This document shows positions 1,747 through 45,972 of a stretch of 64,000 nucleotides of DNA, piece after piece. Under the pieces are notes generated by a model, which was not told where the DNA came from, searched no databases, and saw nothing but the letters and a program-made list of their open reading frames with translations. Source of the DNA: Collinsella sp. An307. Its GTDB lineage: Bacteria; Actinomycetota; Coriobacteriia; Coriobacteriales; Coriobacteriaceae. A program made the translations under genes and the position numbers. The stretch covers positions 1-64,000 of the forward strand of contig NZ_NFIP01000008.1 of assembly GCF_002161805.1 (NCBI RefSeq). Reading direction: 5' to 3'. Within the stretch, counting starts at the first letter, position 1; every line of letters starts with the position of its first letter.

Positions 1747-1925
1747 TACAATAACCCTGCATGCGTATTTCTGTTGCAAGGTGCGCTCGACGTTTTCGCC
1801 GCCGTCGCTCCGCCACCTTCCGGATACGGTAGATGACCTGCAGAAATTCGCAAGCGCCGTTGATTGTCCGGCATGCAAGGGAGCATGCCGGGGGACTGTA
1901 TACCTACACGAGAGGAGAGGGGTAT
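1747..1925 (+). promoter_or_regulatory. Leader and possible promoter of PFOR gene
   Basis: The 279-bp gap before the PFOR gene holds no convincing gene. A possible -10 box TACAAT lies at 1747-1752, with no good -35 partner. A perfect 9-bp stem (CCGGCATGC/GCATGCCGG, six-base loop) spans 1868-1891. It ends about 35 bases before the start codon, so it would sit in the 5' UTR. Its role is unknown. Confidence 0.35.
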
Positions 1926-4900
1926 ATGGCGCGTTCGTTCAAGTCCATGGACGGCAACGAGGCGGCTGCATACGTATCGTATGCATTCACCGAGGTTGCG
2001 GGTATCTACCCGATTACGCCGTCCAGCCCGATGGCCGACCACGTCGACCAGTGGGCAGCTCAGGGCAAGAAGAACATCTTTGGCACGAAGGTGAACGTCA
2101 TCGAGATGGAGTCCGAGGCTGGCGCCGCGGGCACCGTCCACGGCTCGCTTTGCGCGGGTGCGCTGACCACCACCTACACGGCGTCTCAGGGTCTTCTGCT
2201 CATGATCCCGAACATGTACAAGATCGCTGGCGAGCACCTGCCGGGCGTGTTCCACGTCTCCGCGCGTACCGTTGCTTCGCACGCGCTCAACATCTTCGGT
2301 GATCACTCCGACGTCATGGCCTGCCGCCAGACCGGTTTTGCCATGCTCGCCGAGACCAACGTCCAGGAGGTCATGGACCTTTCGGCCGTCGCGCACCTCT
2401 CTGCCATCAAGGGTCGCGTGCCGTTCCTGAACTTCTTCGACGGCTTCCGCACCTCCCATGAGATTCAGAAGGTCGCTACGTGGGATTACGCCGACCTCGC
2501 CGAGATGTGCGACATGGACGCTGTCCAGGCCTTCCGCGATCACGCGCTCAACCCCGAGCATCCGGTCAACCGCGGTACGCACGAGGACGGCGACGTCTTC
2601 TTCCAGCACCGTGAGGCCTGCAACACCACCTACAACGAGCTCCCCGCCGTTGTTGAGGACTACATGAACCAGGTGAACGCCAAGCTCGGCACCAACTATC
2701 ACCTGTTCGACTACTACGGCGCCGCTGACGCCGACCGCGTGGTCGTCTGCATGGGTTCGTTCTGCGACACCCTCGAGGAGGTCATCGACTACCTCAACGC
2801 TCACGGCGAGAAGGCCGGCCTCGTCAAGGTCCGCCTGTATCGCCCCTGGTCGCTCGAGCACTTCATGGCCGCTCTCCCCGAGACGGTCAAGAAGATCGCC
2901 GTTCTCGACCGCACCAAGGAGGCCGGCTCCCTCGGCGAGCCCCTCTACGAGGATGTTGTCTCCTCGCTCTACGAGACGGGCAAGACCGACATCGTCGTGG
3001 TCGGCGGCCGTTACGGCCTCGGTTCCAAGGACGAGCCGCCCGCGGCTGCGTTCTCGGTCTACGAGGAGCTCAAGGCCGACGAGCCCAAGCGCGAGTTCAC
3101 CATCGGTATCGTGGACGACGTCACCAACCTGTCGCTCCCGATGGACGCCGATGCGCCCAACACCGCTGCTGAGGGCACCATCGAGTGCAAGTTCTGGGGT
3201 CTCGGCGGCGACGGTACCGTCGGTGCCAACAAGAACTCGATCAAGATCATCGGCGACCACACCGACAAGTACGTCCAGGCCTACTTCCAGTACGACTCCA
3301 AGAAGACGGGCGGCGTGACCATCAGCCACCTGCGCTTTGGCGACAAGCCCATCAAGAGCCCGTACTACATCACCAAGGCCGACTTCGTGGCGTGCCACAA
3401 CCCGAGCTACATCACGAAGCACTTCAAGATCGCTCAGGGTGTGAAGCCCGGCGGTACGCTCATGATCAACTGCCAGTGGAGCTTCGACGAGCTTGCCGAG
3501 CACCTTTCCGCGGCTGAGAAGCGCTACATCGCCAAGAACAACATCCAGCTCTACACCATCAACGCCATCGACCTGGCGGTCCAGGTGGGTATGGGCAAGC
3601 GCACCAACACCATCCTCCAGTCCGCGTTCTTCACGCTGGCCGGTGTCCTCCCGCAGGAGGACGCGATCCAGTACATGAAGGCCGCTGCCGAGAAGTCCTA
3701 CGCCAAGAAGGGCCAGGACGTCGTCGAGGCCAACTGGAAGGCCATCGACGCCGGCGCCACCGCGTTTGAGAAGCACGAGGTCCCCGCTGAGTGGGCCGAC
3801 GCCTCCGACGACGCTCCCGCCGCTGAGCTCAAGGGTCGCCCCGAGCTCATCAAGCAGGTCAAGGAGATCATGGAGCCCATCAACCGCATGGAGGGCGACG
3901 AGCTCCCCGTGTCTGCGTTCAAGGGCCACGAGGACGGTCAGTTCGAGCAGGGCGCTTCCGCCTACGAGAAGCGCGGCGTCGCCGTTATGGTGCCGCACTG
4001 GGACGAGACCAAGTGCATCCAGTGCAACCAGTGCTCCTATGTCTGCCCGCACGCCACGATCCGCCCGTTCGGCCTCACCGAGGACGAGATCGCCGCTGCG
4101 CCCGAGAACCTGCGCACCATCGACATCAAGGTCCCGAAGGACACGGGCCTCAAGTTCACGATGGCCATCAGCCCGCTCGACTGCATGGGCTGCACCAACT
4201 GCGCGAAGGTCTGCCCGAAGGACGCCCTCACCATGGTGCCGACCGAGCAGGAGCTCGCCGAGCAGCAGGTCTTCGACTACTGCGTCGAGAACGTTGCTCC
4301 CAAGCCGGTCCTCGAGTCCAACAACGTCAAGGGCAGCCAGTTTGTCCAGCCGCTGCTTGAGTTCTCCGGCTCCTGCGCCGGCTGCGCCGAGACGGCCTAC
4401 GCGCGCCTGGTCACCCAGGTCTGCGGCGACCGCATGTTCATCTCCAACGCCACCGGCTGCTCCTCGATTTGGGGCAACCCCGCGGCCCGCAGCCCCTACA
4501 CCGTCAACAAGGACGGCCATGGTCCTGCGTGGAACAACAGCCTCTTCGAGGACAACGCCGAGCACGGTCTGGGCATGGCTCTTGGTTACGAGGCCGTCCA
4601 GGACAAGCTCGTCGCCGAGACCGAGGCGCTCATCGCTGCCGACGGCACGCCCGAGGCTGTGAAGACCGCTGGTCGGGCCTGGATCGACGCCCGTAAGGAC
4701 GCCGAGGCCAGCAAGACCGCTGCCGCCGCCTACATCGAGGCCCTCGAGGCTTGCGGCTGCGACGCTGCCAAGAAGATCCTCGCCGACAAGTCCTTCCTCA
4801 CCAAGAAGTCCTTCTGGATTCTCGGTGGCGACGGTTGGGCGTACGACATCGGCTTCGGTGGCCTGGACCACGTCCTCGCCTCTGGCCACGACGTCAACGT

Positions 4901-5465
4901 CTTCGTCTTCGACACCGAGGTGTACTCCAACACCGGCGGCCAGGCCTCCAAGGCCTCGAACCTCGGCCAGGTGGCCCAGTTCGCCGCTGCTGGTAAGCAC
5001 ACCAAGAAGAAGAGCCTCGCCGAGATTGCGATGAGCTACGGTTACGTCTACGTGGCGCAGGTCGCTATGGGCGCCAACCCCGCTCAGACCCTCAAGGCCA
5101 TCCAGGAGGCCGAGGCCTACGACGGCCCGTCCATCATCATCGGCTACGCTCCCTGCGAGATGCACTCCATCAAGAAGGGCGGCATGCAGAACTGCCAGGC
5201 CGAGATGAAGAAGGCCGTGGACTGCGGTTACTGGAACCTCTTCCGCTTCAACCCCGCCGCCGAGGTGGGCAAGAAGTTCACCCTCGACTCCAAGGAGCCG
5301 AAGGGCGGCTACCAGGACTTCCTGATGAACGAGGCCCGCTACGCTTCGCTCAGCCGTGTCCTGCCGCAGGATCAGGTCGACGCGCTCTTCCAGGCCAACG
5401 AGGCCGCGGCTATGGCGCGCTACCAGCACCTGCTCAAGCTCAAGGACGTCTACGCAGAGGTCTAA
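1926..5465 (+). CDS. nifJ: Pyruvate:ferredoxin (flavodoxin) oxidoreductase
   Basis: This 1179-residue single-chain enzyme converts pyruvate and CoA to acetyl-CoA, CO2 and reduced ferredoxin, the central carbon step of anaerobes. The pyruvate-binding N terminus has YPITPSSPMADH near residue 28. Two ferredoxin-type clusters follow at about 697 (CIQCNQCSYVCP) and 752 (CMGCTNCAKVCP). The proximal-cluster cysteines lie in GSCAGC (about 816), NATGCSS and APCEMHS, and a thiamine-diphosphate motif GDGWAYDIGFGG is near 967. The length fits the family. The start at 1926 has GAGGAGAGG upstream; the frame extends further up but without such a site. The gene is monocistronic and ends in a long terminator. 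Codon use is strongly biased, consistent with high expression. Confidence 0.97.
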   Translation: MARSFKSMDGNEAAAYVSYAFTEVAGIYPITPSSPMADHVDQWAAQGKKNIFGTKVNVIEMESEAGAAGTVHGSLCAGALTTTYTASQGLLLMIPNMYKIAGEHLPGVFHVSARTVASHALNIFGDHSDVMACRQTGFAMLAETNVQEVMDLSAVAHLSAIKGRVPFLNFFDGFRTSHEIQKVATWDYADLAEMCDMDAVQAFRDHALNPEHPVNRGTHEDGDVFFQHREACNTTYNELPAVVEDYMNQVNAKLGTNYHLFDYYGAADADRVVVCMGSFCDTLEEVIDYLNAHGEKAGLVKVRLYRPWSLEHFMAALPETVKKIAVLDRTKEAGSLGEPLYEDVVSSLYETGKTDIVVVGGRYGLGSKDEPPAAAFSVYEELKADEPKREFTIGIVDDVTNLSLPMDADAPNTAAEGTIECKFWGLGGDGTVGANKNSIKIIGDHTDKYVQAYFQYDSKKTGGVTISHLRFGDKPIKSPYYITKADFVACHNPSYITKHFKIAQGVKPGGTLMINCQWSFDELAEHLSAAEKRYIAKNNIQLYTINAIDLAVQVGMGKRTNTILQSAFFTLAGVLPQEDAIQYMKAAAEKSYAKKGQDVVEANWKAIDAGATAFEKHEVPAEWADASDDAPAAELKGRPELIKQVKEIMEPINRMEGDELPVSAFKGHEDGQFEQGASAYEKRGVAVMVPHWDETKCIQCNQCSYVCPHATIRPFGLTEDEIAAAPENLRTIDIKVPKDTGLKFTMAISPLDCMGCTNCAKVCPKDALTMVPTEQELAEQQVFDYCVENVAPKPVLESNNVKGSQFVQPLLEFSGSCAGCAETAYARLVTQVCGDRMFISNATGCSSIWGNPAARSPYTVNKDGHGPAWNNSLFEDNAEHGLGMALGYEAVQDKLVAETEALIAADGTPEAVKTAGRAWIDARKDAEASKTAAAAYIEALEACGCDAAKKILADKSFLTKKSFWILGGDGWAYDIGFGGLDHVLASGHDVNVFVFDTEVYSNTGGQASKASNLGQVAQFAAAGKHTKKKSLAEIAMSYGYVYVAQVAMGANPAQTLKAIQEAEAYDGPSIIIGYAPCEMHSIKKGGMQNCQAEMKKAVDCGYWNLFRFNPAAEVGKKFTLDSKEPKGGYQDFLMNEARYASLSRVLPQDQVDALFQANEAAAMARYQHLLKLKDVYAEV

Positions 5466-5490
5466 GGGTTAAGGGTTAACGCCTAACGGA

Positions 5491-5574
5491 AAGCCCCGGA
5501 GGGTTTCCACGCGAACGTCCTCGCGCTTACGCGCTGCGGAATGTTCGCTTAGGAAATCCCTCCGGGGCTTTTCT
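5491..5574 (+). terminator. Long intrinsic terminator after PFOR gene with conserved apical module
   Basis: An extended interrupted stem-loop is visible. The basal arms AAGCCCCGGAGGG (5491-5503) and CCCTCCGGGGCTT (5558-5570) pair perfectly and run into a T-rich tail. Inside are TTTCC/GGAAA, GCGAAC/GTTCGC and a GC-rich tip. The inner 47 bases at 5507-5553 recur with one change at 21219-21265 inside the rubrerythrin terminator. Confidence 0.9.
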
Positions 5575-20535: not shown

Positions 20536-20571
20536 CAACAGATGCCGCTGATGGCGTTGCGCATAAATGGG

Positions 20572-20577
20572 TATAAC
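20572..20577 (+). promoter_or_regulatory. Possible -10 box of rubrerythrin gene
   Basis: TATAAC at 20572-20577 lies 58 bases before the rubrerythrin ATG in the 100-bp gap after the glycosylase gene. No good -35 is seen at 17 bases, so an activator or an extended element may be needed. Confidence 0.35.
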
Positions 20578-20635
20578 AAGTAAACGCGCAGATAGCGCGC
20601 AACATACCGTTCTCATAGAAGGGAAAGGGATACCC

Positions 20636-21175
20636 ATGGACTTTGAGAACTCTCAGACCAAGAAGAACCTCGAGACTGCATTTGCCGGTGAGTCGCAGGC
20701 TCACACCAAGTATCGTTATTACGCCTCGCAGGCTAAGAAGGACGGCTACGTTCAGATCCAGAACATCTTTATGGAGACGGCCCTCAACGAGTCCGAGCAT
20801 GCCAAGCTTTGGTTCAAGTACCTGCACGGCGGCGCGGTGCCCGGTACCCTCGACAACCTGAAGGATGCCGCCTCCGGCGAGAACTACGAGTGGACCACCA
20901 TGTACGACGAGTTCGCGAAGACCGCCGAGGAGGAGGGCTTCAAGGAGATCGCCGCCAAGTTCCGTGGCGTCGGCGCGGTTGAGAAGGCTCATGAGGAGCG
21001 CTATCTCAAGCTCGCTGAGCGCGTGGAGAAGGGCGAGGTCTTCGATCGCGAGGGCGTCAAGGTCTGGAAGTGCCTGAACTGCGGCCATCTGCATGTTGGT
21101 CCGGCTGCCCCGCAGGTCTGCCCGGTCTGCAACCATCCGCAGAGCTACTTCGAGGAGCAGGTCGTCAACTACTAA
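20636..21175 (+). CDS. rbr: Rubrerythrin
   Basis: The 179-residue non-haem iron protein reduces hydrogen peroxide in the cytoplasm of anaerobes. The ferritin-like di-iron domain (about 1-135) has the ExxH ligand sets in [25 protein letters not shown] and [12 protein letters not shown] rubredoxin-like domain at the end carries CLNCGH and CPVCNH. The ATG at 20636 follows AGGGAAAGGGA. Strong codon bias suggests high expression. The gene ends in a long terminator whose tip is nearly identical to that of the PFOR terminator, linking two oxygen-sensitive-metabolism genes. Confidence 0.95.
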
Positions 21176-21198
21176 GGTCTGAGCTTCACACCTGAGGG

Positions 21199-21294
21199 GG
21201 AGGCCCCCGAAGGAGTTCCCACGCGAACGTCCTCGCGCTTGCGCGCTGCGGAATGTTCGCTTAGGGAATCTCCTTCGGGGGCCTCCTCTTGTTT
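21199..21294 (+). terminator. Long intrinsic terminator after rubrerythrin with conserved apical module
   Basis: The basal arms GAGGCCCCCGAAGGAG (21200-21215) and CTCCTTCGGGGGCCTC (21270-21285) pair perfectly. Above them are TTCCC/GGGAA and GCGAAC/GTTCGC, and a T-rich tail follows. Bases 21219-21265 match 5507-5553 in 46 of 47 positions although the basal arms are unrelated in sequence. Confidence 0.9.
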
Positions 21295-30084: not shown

Positions 30085-31497
<1,413 letters not shown>

Positions 31498-31505
31498 GCG
31501 CAGAT

Positions 31506-31605
31506 GCCCGGCCGAACGCTCCCTTCGGGCGTGGTCCTCGGCACGGGTGCGCGCTTCGCGCGCCCGTGCCTGCGGGAAACGCCCTGCGGGAGCGGTCGGT
31601 CGGGC
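31506..31605 (+). other. 100-nt branched or nested stem-loop after the GH4 gene
   Basis: Nested complementary arms are visible from outside in: GCCCGGCCG (31506-31514) with CGGTCGGGC (31597-31605); CGCTCCC with GGGAGCG; GGGCGT with ACGCCC; and GGCACGGG (31540-31547) with CCCGTGCC (31563-31570), closed by a CGCGC/GCGCG tip. There is no T tract, so it is not a simple terminator. It could be a stable RNA end, a small RNA or a degenerate repeat. Confidence 0.55.
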
Positions 31606-31680
31606 GTGTGGCAACAAGTGTTCCACATGCGGACGGGGATTAGCTGGCAACCAAGGATGGATTGAGACGGAGGAGTGGCT

Positions 31681-44531: not shown

Positions 44532-45887
44532 ATGAACGAGAACAAGAAGTTTCGCATCTGCATCGTCGGCGGCGGCTCCCGCTACACGCCGGGCATCCTG
44601 AAGATGCTCGTGGCCGAGAAGGACCGCTTCCCGATCTCGACCATCGTGCTTTACGACAACGAGGCCGAGCGCCAGGAGCGCGTCTGCGGCTACGGCAAGG
44701 TGCTGCTGCGCGAGTACTATCCCGAGTGCGAGATCATCCACACCACCGATCCCGAGACCGCCTTCACCGGCATCGACTTTGCCTTCATGCAGATTCGCGC
44801 CGGCCGCCTGAAGATGCGCGAGTCCGACGAGAAGATCGCCCTCAAGCACGGCTGCATCGGCCAGGAGACCTGCGGTGCCGGTGGCTTTGCCTACGGTATG
44901 CGCTCCGTGCCCGCGGTGTGCGCCATCATCAAGGACATCCGCAAGTACGCGCCCGAGGCTTGGGTGCTCAACTACTCCAACCCCGCGGCCATCGTCGCCG
45001 AGGCCACCAAGCGCGTCTTCCCCGGTGACTACCGCATCATCAACATCTGCGACATGCCCGTCGGCATCATGGGCATGTACGCCCAGGCCCTCGGCCTCCC
45101 GTCGAAGCAGCTTGAGCCCCGTTACTTCGGTCTTAACCACTACGGCTGGTTCACCCACATCTACGACAAGGTGACCGGCGAGGACTACCTGCCTAAGCTC
45201 AAGAAGATGTTCGCCACCCCCATGCAGGATGACGAGCACACCGGCCACGAGGTTGACGCCTCCTGGGCCGAGACCTTCCGCTTCATGTCCAAGATGGTGC
45301 GCGAGTGCGGCGACAAGTTCATGCCCAACACCTACCTGCAGTACTACCTCTATCCCAAGCACATGGTCTCGATCGAGAACCCCGACTACACCCGCGCCAA
45401 CGAGGTCATGGACGGCCACGAGAAGCGCACGTTCGAGATGATCGAGGAGGTCATCGCCGCCGATAAGCTCAAGGGCACCAAGTACGAGATGACCGAGGAG
45501 GACTTCAACGACGGTCACGCCACCTACATCGTGGACCTCGCTTACGCCATCTCCCACAACACGCAGGACATCTTCCTGTGCATGACCGAGAACCACGGCA
45601 TCATCTCCAACTTCTCCGAAGGCGCCATGGTTGAGGTGCCGGTCCGCGTGGGCGTGAACGGCGTCGAGGCCCTGAACGTGGGCGAGATCCCGACCTTCCA
45701 GAAGGGCCTGCTCGAGAACCAGTTTGCCTACGAGAAGCTCACCGTGGACGCCTGCCTTGAGGGCTCCTATGAGAAGGCGTGGAACGCGCTCACCCTCAAC
45801 CGCTGCGTGAACGACACCGACACCGCCAAGGCCCTGCTCGATGACTACATCGAGGCCAACAAGGCCTACTGGCCCGAGCTCAAGTAA
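44532..45887 (+). CDS. GH4 6-phospho-alpha-glucosidase (with PTS-2)
   Basis: The 451-residue enzyme is paralogous to the GH4 with PTS-1. It has NAD-binding [25 protein letters not shown], the metal cysteine in NICDMPVG (about residue 176) and the histidine in FGLNHYGWF (about 205). CDMP again points to 6-phospho-alpha-glucosidase activity. AAAAGGAG lies six bases before the ATG. Strong codon bias suggests high expression under induction. A GC hairpin and a terminator follow. Confidence 0.9.
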   Translation: MNENKKFRICIVGGGSRYTPGILKMLVAEKDRFPISTIVLYDNEAERQERVCGYGKVLLREYYPECEIIHTTDPETAFTGIDFAFMQIRAGRLKMRESDEKIALKHGCIGQETCGAGGFAYGMRSVPAVCAIIKDIRKYAPEAWVLNYSNPAAIVAEATKRVFPGDYRIINICDMPVGIMGMYAQALGLPSKQLEPRYFGLNHYGWFTHIYDKVTGEDYLPKLKKMFATPMQDDEHTGHEVDASWAETFRFMSKMVRECGDKFMPNTYLQYYLYPKHMVSIENPDYTRANEVMDGHEKRTFEMIEEVIAADKLKGTKYEMTEEDFNDGHATYIVDLAYAISHNTQDIFLCMTENHGIISNFSEGAMVEVPVRVGVNGVEALNVGEIPTFQKGLLENQFAYEKLTVDACLEGSYEKAWNALTLNRCVNDTDTAKALLDDYIEANKAYWPELK

Positions 45888-45972
45888 GTGCTCCTGGTGC
45901 CGGCGCGGCACCTCCCGCCGCGCCGGCACGGTCTGCGGGGACCGCGATCCCGCACTTCTTGCGACATGCGGT

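Follow-up and report, generated by a model that had tools for sequence, protein, structure and literature searches.

A bulged internal loop kept within exchangeable stems marks a family of gene-end hairpins in Collinsella and related Coriobacteriaceae

Behind genes of Collinsella sp. An307 and its relatives we found a family of long hairpins, here called class 1, in which a bulged internal loop of about 15 nt is invariant, unlike the stems outside and inside it, which vary with compensation. These hairpins lie almost without exception in the sense orientation, behind genes whose codon usage suggests strong expression. The most likely reading of class 1, to which we give even odds, is an mRNA 3'-end hairpin with a putative conserved binding or stability module. 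The same core occurs in hairpins of a different make (class 2) that are indifferent to orientation and are sometimes nested, and for this reason an element acting at the DNA level remains a serious rival.

Three hairpins with the core in the window

The window, which is the whole stretch of 64,000 nt analysed here (contig NZ_NFIP01000008.1, positions 1 to 64,000), carries the following hairpins and carrier genes.

1833..5465, + strand: carrier of copy 1, pyruvate:ferredoxin oxidoreductase, PFOR (TIGR02176, 1694 bits); the start may be 1926
5488..5573, + strand: copy 1, class 1 hairpin behind PFOR (fold z -8.9 vs shuffles), beginning 22 nt past the stop codon at 5465
5517..5541, + strand: invariant core of copy 1 (GTCCTCG 5517-5523, tip 5524-5533, CTGCGGAA 5534-5541)
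20567..21175, + strand: carrier of copy 2, rubrerythrin (NF045767, 241 bits); the start may be 20636
21195..21290, + strand: copy 2, class 1 hairpin behind rubrerythrin (fold z -8.6 vs shuffles)
21229..21253, + strand: invariant core of copy 2 (GTCCTCG 21229-21235, tip 21236-21245, CTGCGGAA 21246-21253)
30154..31497, + strand: carrier of copy 3, glycoside hydrolase family 4, GH4 (PF02056 and PF11975)
31498..31612, + strand: copy 3, variant hairpin behind the GH4 gene, with arms GTGGTCCTCG / CTGCGGGAAAC and a 29-nt tip (pattern and folding)
31534..31577, + strand: core of copy 3 (GTCCTCG 31534-31540, tip 31541-31569, CTGCGGGA 31570-31577)

The first-pass annotation had pointed out near-identical 47-nt tips in copies 1 and 2, and a direct comparison bears this out: positions 5507-5553 match 21219-21265 at 46 of the 47 bases, with A/G at 5529/21241 as the sole mismatch. 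A pattern made from this tip matched twice in the window and not once in 100 shuffles. The bases that flank the two tips differ (T/C at 5506/21218 and A/G at 5554/21266), and together they are a compensatory pair change from U-A to C-G. The basal arms, which had been described as unrelated, do differ in sequence, but both belong to the GGCCCC(G)GAAGG type that is common at gene ends in the family. Since the 56-nt repeat (5503-5558 and 21215-21270) stops at the hairpin, with no longer match surrounding either copy, copies 1 and 2 are not a segmental duplication of the PFOR and rubrerythrin loci, and this candidate explanation was rejected.

Copy 3 is more distant from the other two, begins at the GH4 stop codon and had been missed in the first pass. 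Neither covariance model of the hairpin family recovered it, because its tip is too long for them. The window also holds two related GH4-type gene copies (30180-31500 and 44561-45890) that lie about 14.4 kb apart and have stretches of 71-79% identity; only the first of them ends in a core hairpin, and the second ends in a plain one.

An invariant internal loop within covarying stems

Inspection of 42 matches revealed a common unit, consisting of GTCCTCG, a variable tip hairpin and CTGCGG(A/G)A, set within a long variable stem. The invariant part is thus a bulged internal loop near the hairpin tip, 5'-GUCCUCG / CUGCGG(A/G)A-3', in a hairpin of about 98 nt with a stem of about 30 pairs. It contains two bulged bases, an A and a U, and one U/C mismatch, and is therefore strand-asymmetric. 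The constancy of the core was seen across 32-79 copies and is in part an effect of ascertainment, the loci having been found through the core itself; the PFOR locus offers a less biased view. The earlier picture of a conserved tip on exchangeable stems holds at dozens of loci, but the 47-nt block is not the real unit: only about 15 nt are invariant, and the inner stem and the tip vary as well as the outer stem.

In an alignment made blind to structure, RNAalifold paired the arms around the internal-loop core. In this alignment 98.2% of the cells were paired and double changes occurred at 10 of 17 pairs; 52 cells were double-changed, compared with 12±3 when the partners were shuffled, and sliding the partners abolished the signal. 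An alignment of 79 distinct copies, fitted to the structure, was 96.3% paired and contained 155 double-changed pair cells (37±5 when shuffled). The pairs of the core showed almost no variation, unlike the stems on either side of it. The hairpins thus keep a bulged core while the stems around it covary, as would be expected of a protein-binding 3'-UTR element.

Distribution of the family

The 47-nt tip pattern, with up to 3 mismatches, has only two copies in the genome of An307; it also matches same-genus relatives and, in another genus, a site behind PFOR. The wider search of the genome and its relatives that the first-pass annotation had proposed uncovered a family far beyond two copies. The exact core pattern matched 15 times in this genome, whereas a reversed control pattern did not match at all. 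About 18 strong copies were counted there by a first covariance model, whose structure was offset by one column, with each hit then folded individually; the corrected model reproduces the matches in the loci examined.

A blastn scan gave matches in 48 of 65 Coriobacteriaceae genomes, and class 1 matches were also present in a few genomes of another Coriobacteriales family. Six Coriobacteriaceae genomes (G013, G027, G030, G069, G075, G077) had no copy that matched the pattern. Outside this order, two Krumholzibacteriia MAGs contain true hairpins whose core is identical and whose arms are AAC/GTT; one of them follows pstB and the other a response-regulator gene. Hairpins of both classes occur in Krumholzibacteriota MAGs (L168 2265-2322, L186 155-206, L204 ~1502, L205). 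One gene on the pstB contig seems to encode a putative outer-membrane beta-barrel protein, which would speak against a contaminant from Coriobacteria. In other Actinomycetota, matches to the core pattern mostly lacked a paired tip and look like chance occurrences.

Orientation and carrier genes of class 1

Gene calls for context were made with a home-made codon-usage gene finder. A sense gene lies upstream of 74 of the 77 informative class 1 copies, and between co-directional genes 46 copies are sense and none is antisense (p 3e-14 under full independence, which does not hold, because orthologues from related genomes are among the copies). The three exceptions share their flanking sequence and probably represent one orthologous locus. 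A class 1 hairpin between two divergently oriented genes (L042 ~6516, L170, L177) may mark the end of a small gene or RNA that is not annotated. With one exception, the core starts 35-68 nt past the stop codon.

The same carrier genes recur across different genera. Fructose-bisphosphate aldolase (fba) carries the hairpin in seven genomes, and purL, PFOR, universal stress protein, rubrerythrin, pta and pheT are also recurrent; groEL and an iron alcohol dehydrogenase are carriers in two families. The link to anaerobic redox metabolism that was suggested by the first two copies does not extend to this set, whose functions are varied and whose members mostly have highly biased codon usage (fba, purL, groEL, typA, pta, pheT). 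The share of C-ending (optimal) codons was 0.86 in carriers and 0.73 in other genes of the same loci (p 4e-8), and 0.83 against 0.74 within the An307 genome (p 0.002). We took this high share as a sign of strong expression.

Turnover at orthologous loci

At orthologous positions behind fba, groEL, purL and PFOR, the outer stem changes with compensation and the core stays. Across species, the PFOR locus is occupied by the core hairpin, by a near variant (G001, G003, G018) or by a quite different plain terminator, and sister species use a plain tetraloop hairpin where others have class 1. In one genome (G005, locus L229) the hairpin behind PFOR has the same type of basal arm and another long tip, TTCCGCACAAGTACCTAACTTGCACGGAA; this candidate for a second recurrent tip was dropped, as it was found only once among the loci examined.

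Copies from the same genome were 0.786 identical on average and copies behind different genes in different genomes 0.790 (permutation p 0.62), so homogenisation within genomes was ruled out. Orthologous copies were more alike (0.842). This combination suggests that class 1 is an old, retained element rather than the product of a recent burst. Among pairs of copies from one genome, just 7% are at least 90% identical, which makes the PFOR/rubrerythrin pair unusually similar.

Class 1 hairpins as possible terminators

Class 1 hairpins are stable, GC-rich and placed just behind a gene in the sense orientation, as terminators are. The T content behind core hairpins equals that behind plain gene-end hairpins, but runs of at least 4 T are rarer (9% and 33%, respectively), and a terminator consensus scan did not call copies 1 and 2. 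From these results it is plausible, and only plausible, that core hairpins end transcription. With intrinsic (Rho-independent) terminators they have in common the GC-rich hairpin just past the stop codon, the sense orientation and some T behind it; they differ in a much longer stem, an invariant internal loop and few long T runs.

Class 2 hairpins have the same core and are not bound to one orientation

Hairpins of class 2 contain the same core in another make, CTC(A/G)(A/G)ACA-GTCCTCG / CTGCGGAACT, with a one-sided 5' bulge. In the An307 genome they lie in the intergenic regions of leuA-leuC-leuD and at a single metal-ATPase-like locus; elsewhere they occur in other Coriobacteriaceae, in Krumholzibacteriota and, abundantly, in one genus of the other Coriobacteriales family. 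They are orientation-neutral (11 vs 10), and the antisense copies of Coriobacteriaceae mostly lie about 60-135 nt before start codons. They often form facing (inverted) pairs. Facing class 2/3 pairs were observed in the leuA-leuC and leuC-leuD intervals (L063 2540-2940 and 4170-4470, L108 1400-1780, L106 1250-1720), and two genera retain them with stems that differ; one hairpin of the pair is sense, behind the upstream gene, and the other is antisense, some 60-70 nt ahead of the following start codon.

Class 2 hairpins can also be nested core-in-core, up to three deep (L317, at G249:C12:149122-152143; also L126, L134, L143, L302 and L312). In these, the tip of one core is a complete further hairpin with its own core, an arrangement that looks like repeated insertion into the tip.

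Transposases, phages and plasmids

Genes for Y1 transposases are present in most of the Coriobacteriaceae genomes scanned. No core hairpin was found at the gene in 40 Y1-domain loci of Coriobacteriaceae and 8 of the other family, and a link to RAYT/REP systems was rejected, given that no Y1 gene examined is flanked by one. RAYT-like Y1 genes of 250-345 aa (L262-L300; in the An307 genome, G000:C10:42266-42595) are flanked by repeats of their own, GGGGACGGGT / GGGACAGTCCC, which are unrelated to the core. Over 48 genomes the number of hairpin copies correlated moderately with the number of RAYT genes (Spearman 0.41), about as well as with genome size (0.35), to which RAYT number was related to a similar degree. 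One genome (G003) lacks any RAYT-like gene and yet contains 12 copies.

Four viral matches were coding-type sequence without a hairpin, and a second viral scan gave none. Plasmid matches in Paracoccus and Streptomyces lacked a long hairpin; the only plasmid match with a hairpin was a 900-kb Collinsella record. Carriage by phages or plasmids was rejected on the basis of these viral matches without a hairpin and plasmid matches mostly without one.

Comparison with known elements

Among described elements the REP repeats come nearest, chiefly the super-family that bears a CGTC tag (Di Nocera et al. 2013, PMC3733652). These are short palindromic intergenic repeats that occur in several phyla, mostly behind genes and without a transposase of their own; the unit has an unpaired CGTC (or TGTC/CCTC) at one end, a stem of 8-9 bp, a loop of 4-5 and a short tail, and REP dimers can sit inside longer palindromes (PMC3733652). 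The core hairpins resemble them as intergenic palindromes behind genes, in the head-to-head dimers that class 2 recalls, and in having no dedicated transposase at the Y1 genes examined. However, the whole unit is conserved in CGTC REPs, whereas here only the internal loop is conserved and the stems vary; moreover, CGTC in class 1 is part of the duplex, within a stem some 30 pairs long, and class 2 reads CAGTCC, with no CGTC. GTAG REPs and REPINs with their RAYT (PMC3116915, PMC3733652) are likewise hairpins with unpaired bases that come in pairs and in many copies, and RAYT-like genes are present here; they differ in that no core lies at the RAYT flanks examined and class 1 is sense-locked. 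No conserved terminal GTAG tag was present in the core or flanks of the aligned copies.

In a search of the window, with its three copies, against Rfam, only tRNA reached the gathering score, and the class 2 loci returned no family; all else that Rfam gave was eukaryotic families at chance level, with E 1-2. Collinsella-1 (RF01700, PMC2864571) is, like the present family, a structured RNA candidate of gut Actinobacteria, but it gave no match at gathering score here. A literature search with the letters of the core returned only papers that resembled chance matches. Free exchange of stems around one kept bulged loop, strictly in sense behind strongly expressed genes, was not found in Rfam or in the literature searched, which covered few subscription journals.

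Discussion

Reading class 1 as RNA is supported by the sense lock, the covariation, the constancy of the core at orthologous loci, the repeated association with the same genes, the biased codon usage of the carriers and the interchange with plain terminators at the PFOR locus. We infer that class 1 is transcribed and acts as RNA, in termination or stabilisation, and that a dedicated factor recognises the core. The hairpin, which starts about 20 nt past the stop codon of strongly expressed genes, would then have two working parts: the long GC-rich stem would probably block 3' decay and aid the end of transcription, and the bulged internal loop (GUCCUCG / CUGCGG(A/G)A) would be the place where a trans-acting factor docks. 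This factor, in all likelihood a protein that binds RNA, might protect, process or regulate the transcript end. Carried to its full extent, this would be an undescribed 3'-end RNA regulon in which a Coriobacteriia RNA-binding factor reads the loop and sets the fate of the mRNA end, with class 2 presenting the same site in other hairpins; we advance this tentatively, as a possibility that falls short of being probable. The weak T runs count against the RNA reading, as does class 2, which is not orientation-locked, lies in part antisense upstream of genes, can be nested and looks more like a DNA element; the choice of loci through the core and the relatedness of the genomes weaken it further. 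The readings offered in the first-pass annotation divide along the same line: an RNA-binding, stability or 3'-end element fits the sense lock of class 1, and a mobile repeat that inserts into loops may still apply, given the neutrality and nesting of class 2.

The core may instead be a REP-like DNA palindrome, read as ssDNA or as a cruciform by a recombinase or transposase and inserting into hairpin loops, terminators included, so that class 1 would consist of copies trapped in gene-end hairpins or co-opted to serve as such. Known ssDNA-hairpin substrates are strand-asymmetric through bulges, like the core. Class 2, with its orientation neutrality, its facing pairs and its nesting, speaks for such an element, as do the patchy occupancy of the PFOR locus and the precedent of REP dimers within longer palindromes (PMC3733652). 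Nevertheless, we consider this explanation less likely than not, given the orientation lock of class 1 (46 vs 0), the Y1 and RAYT genes examined, none of which had a core hairpin, the lack of a within-genome burst (p 0.62), the lack of viral-contig copies with a hairpin, and the return of the same highly expressed genes across genera.

A design without any partner, in which the core merely folds or caps a long gene-end hairpin fast and is selected for folding, would agree with the position of the core in long hairpins behind strongly expressed genes and with a T content like that of plain hairpins. It is improbable, because the core is bulged, mismatched and not especially stable and yet is invariant, whereas the stems, which are stable, and the tip change without constraint, and because in sister species a plain tetraloop hairpin serves equally well. 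That copies 1 and 2 are just a recent duplication or gene-conversion pair, with no family behind them, is scarcely credible in view of the 18 strong copies in the genome, the 15 exact core matches against 0 for the control, and the occurrence of copies in further genera, a second family and a second phylum. This explanation is refuted for the family; the tips behind PFOR and rubrerythrin are nonetheless unusually alike for same-genome copies, and duplication or gene conversion may account for the high identity of that one pair. No duplicated segment was found, and core-bearing intergenic copies are flanked by complementary arms, contrary to what the first pass had named as grounds for abandoning its proposal.

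Terminators and REP-type repeats are already known, and a major gut lineage carries this hairpin family. If the core hairpins are an element of DNA, the nested hairpins of class 2 would be a rare record of insertion into hairpin loops. If a factor does bind the loop at mRNA ends, it would constitute a post-transcriptional system acting on the central metabolism of Collinsella and its relatives, for which the core is a ready-made bait.
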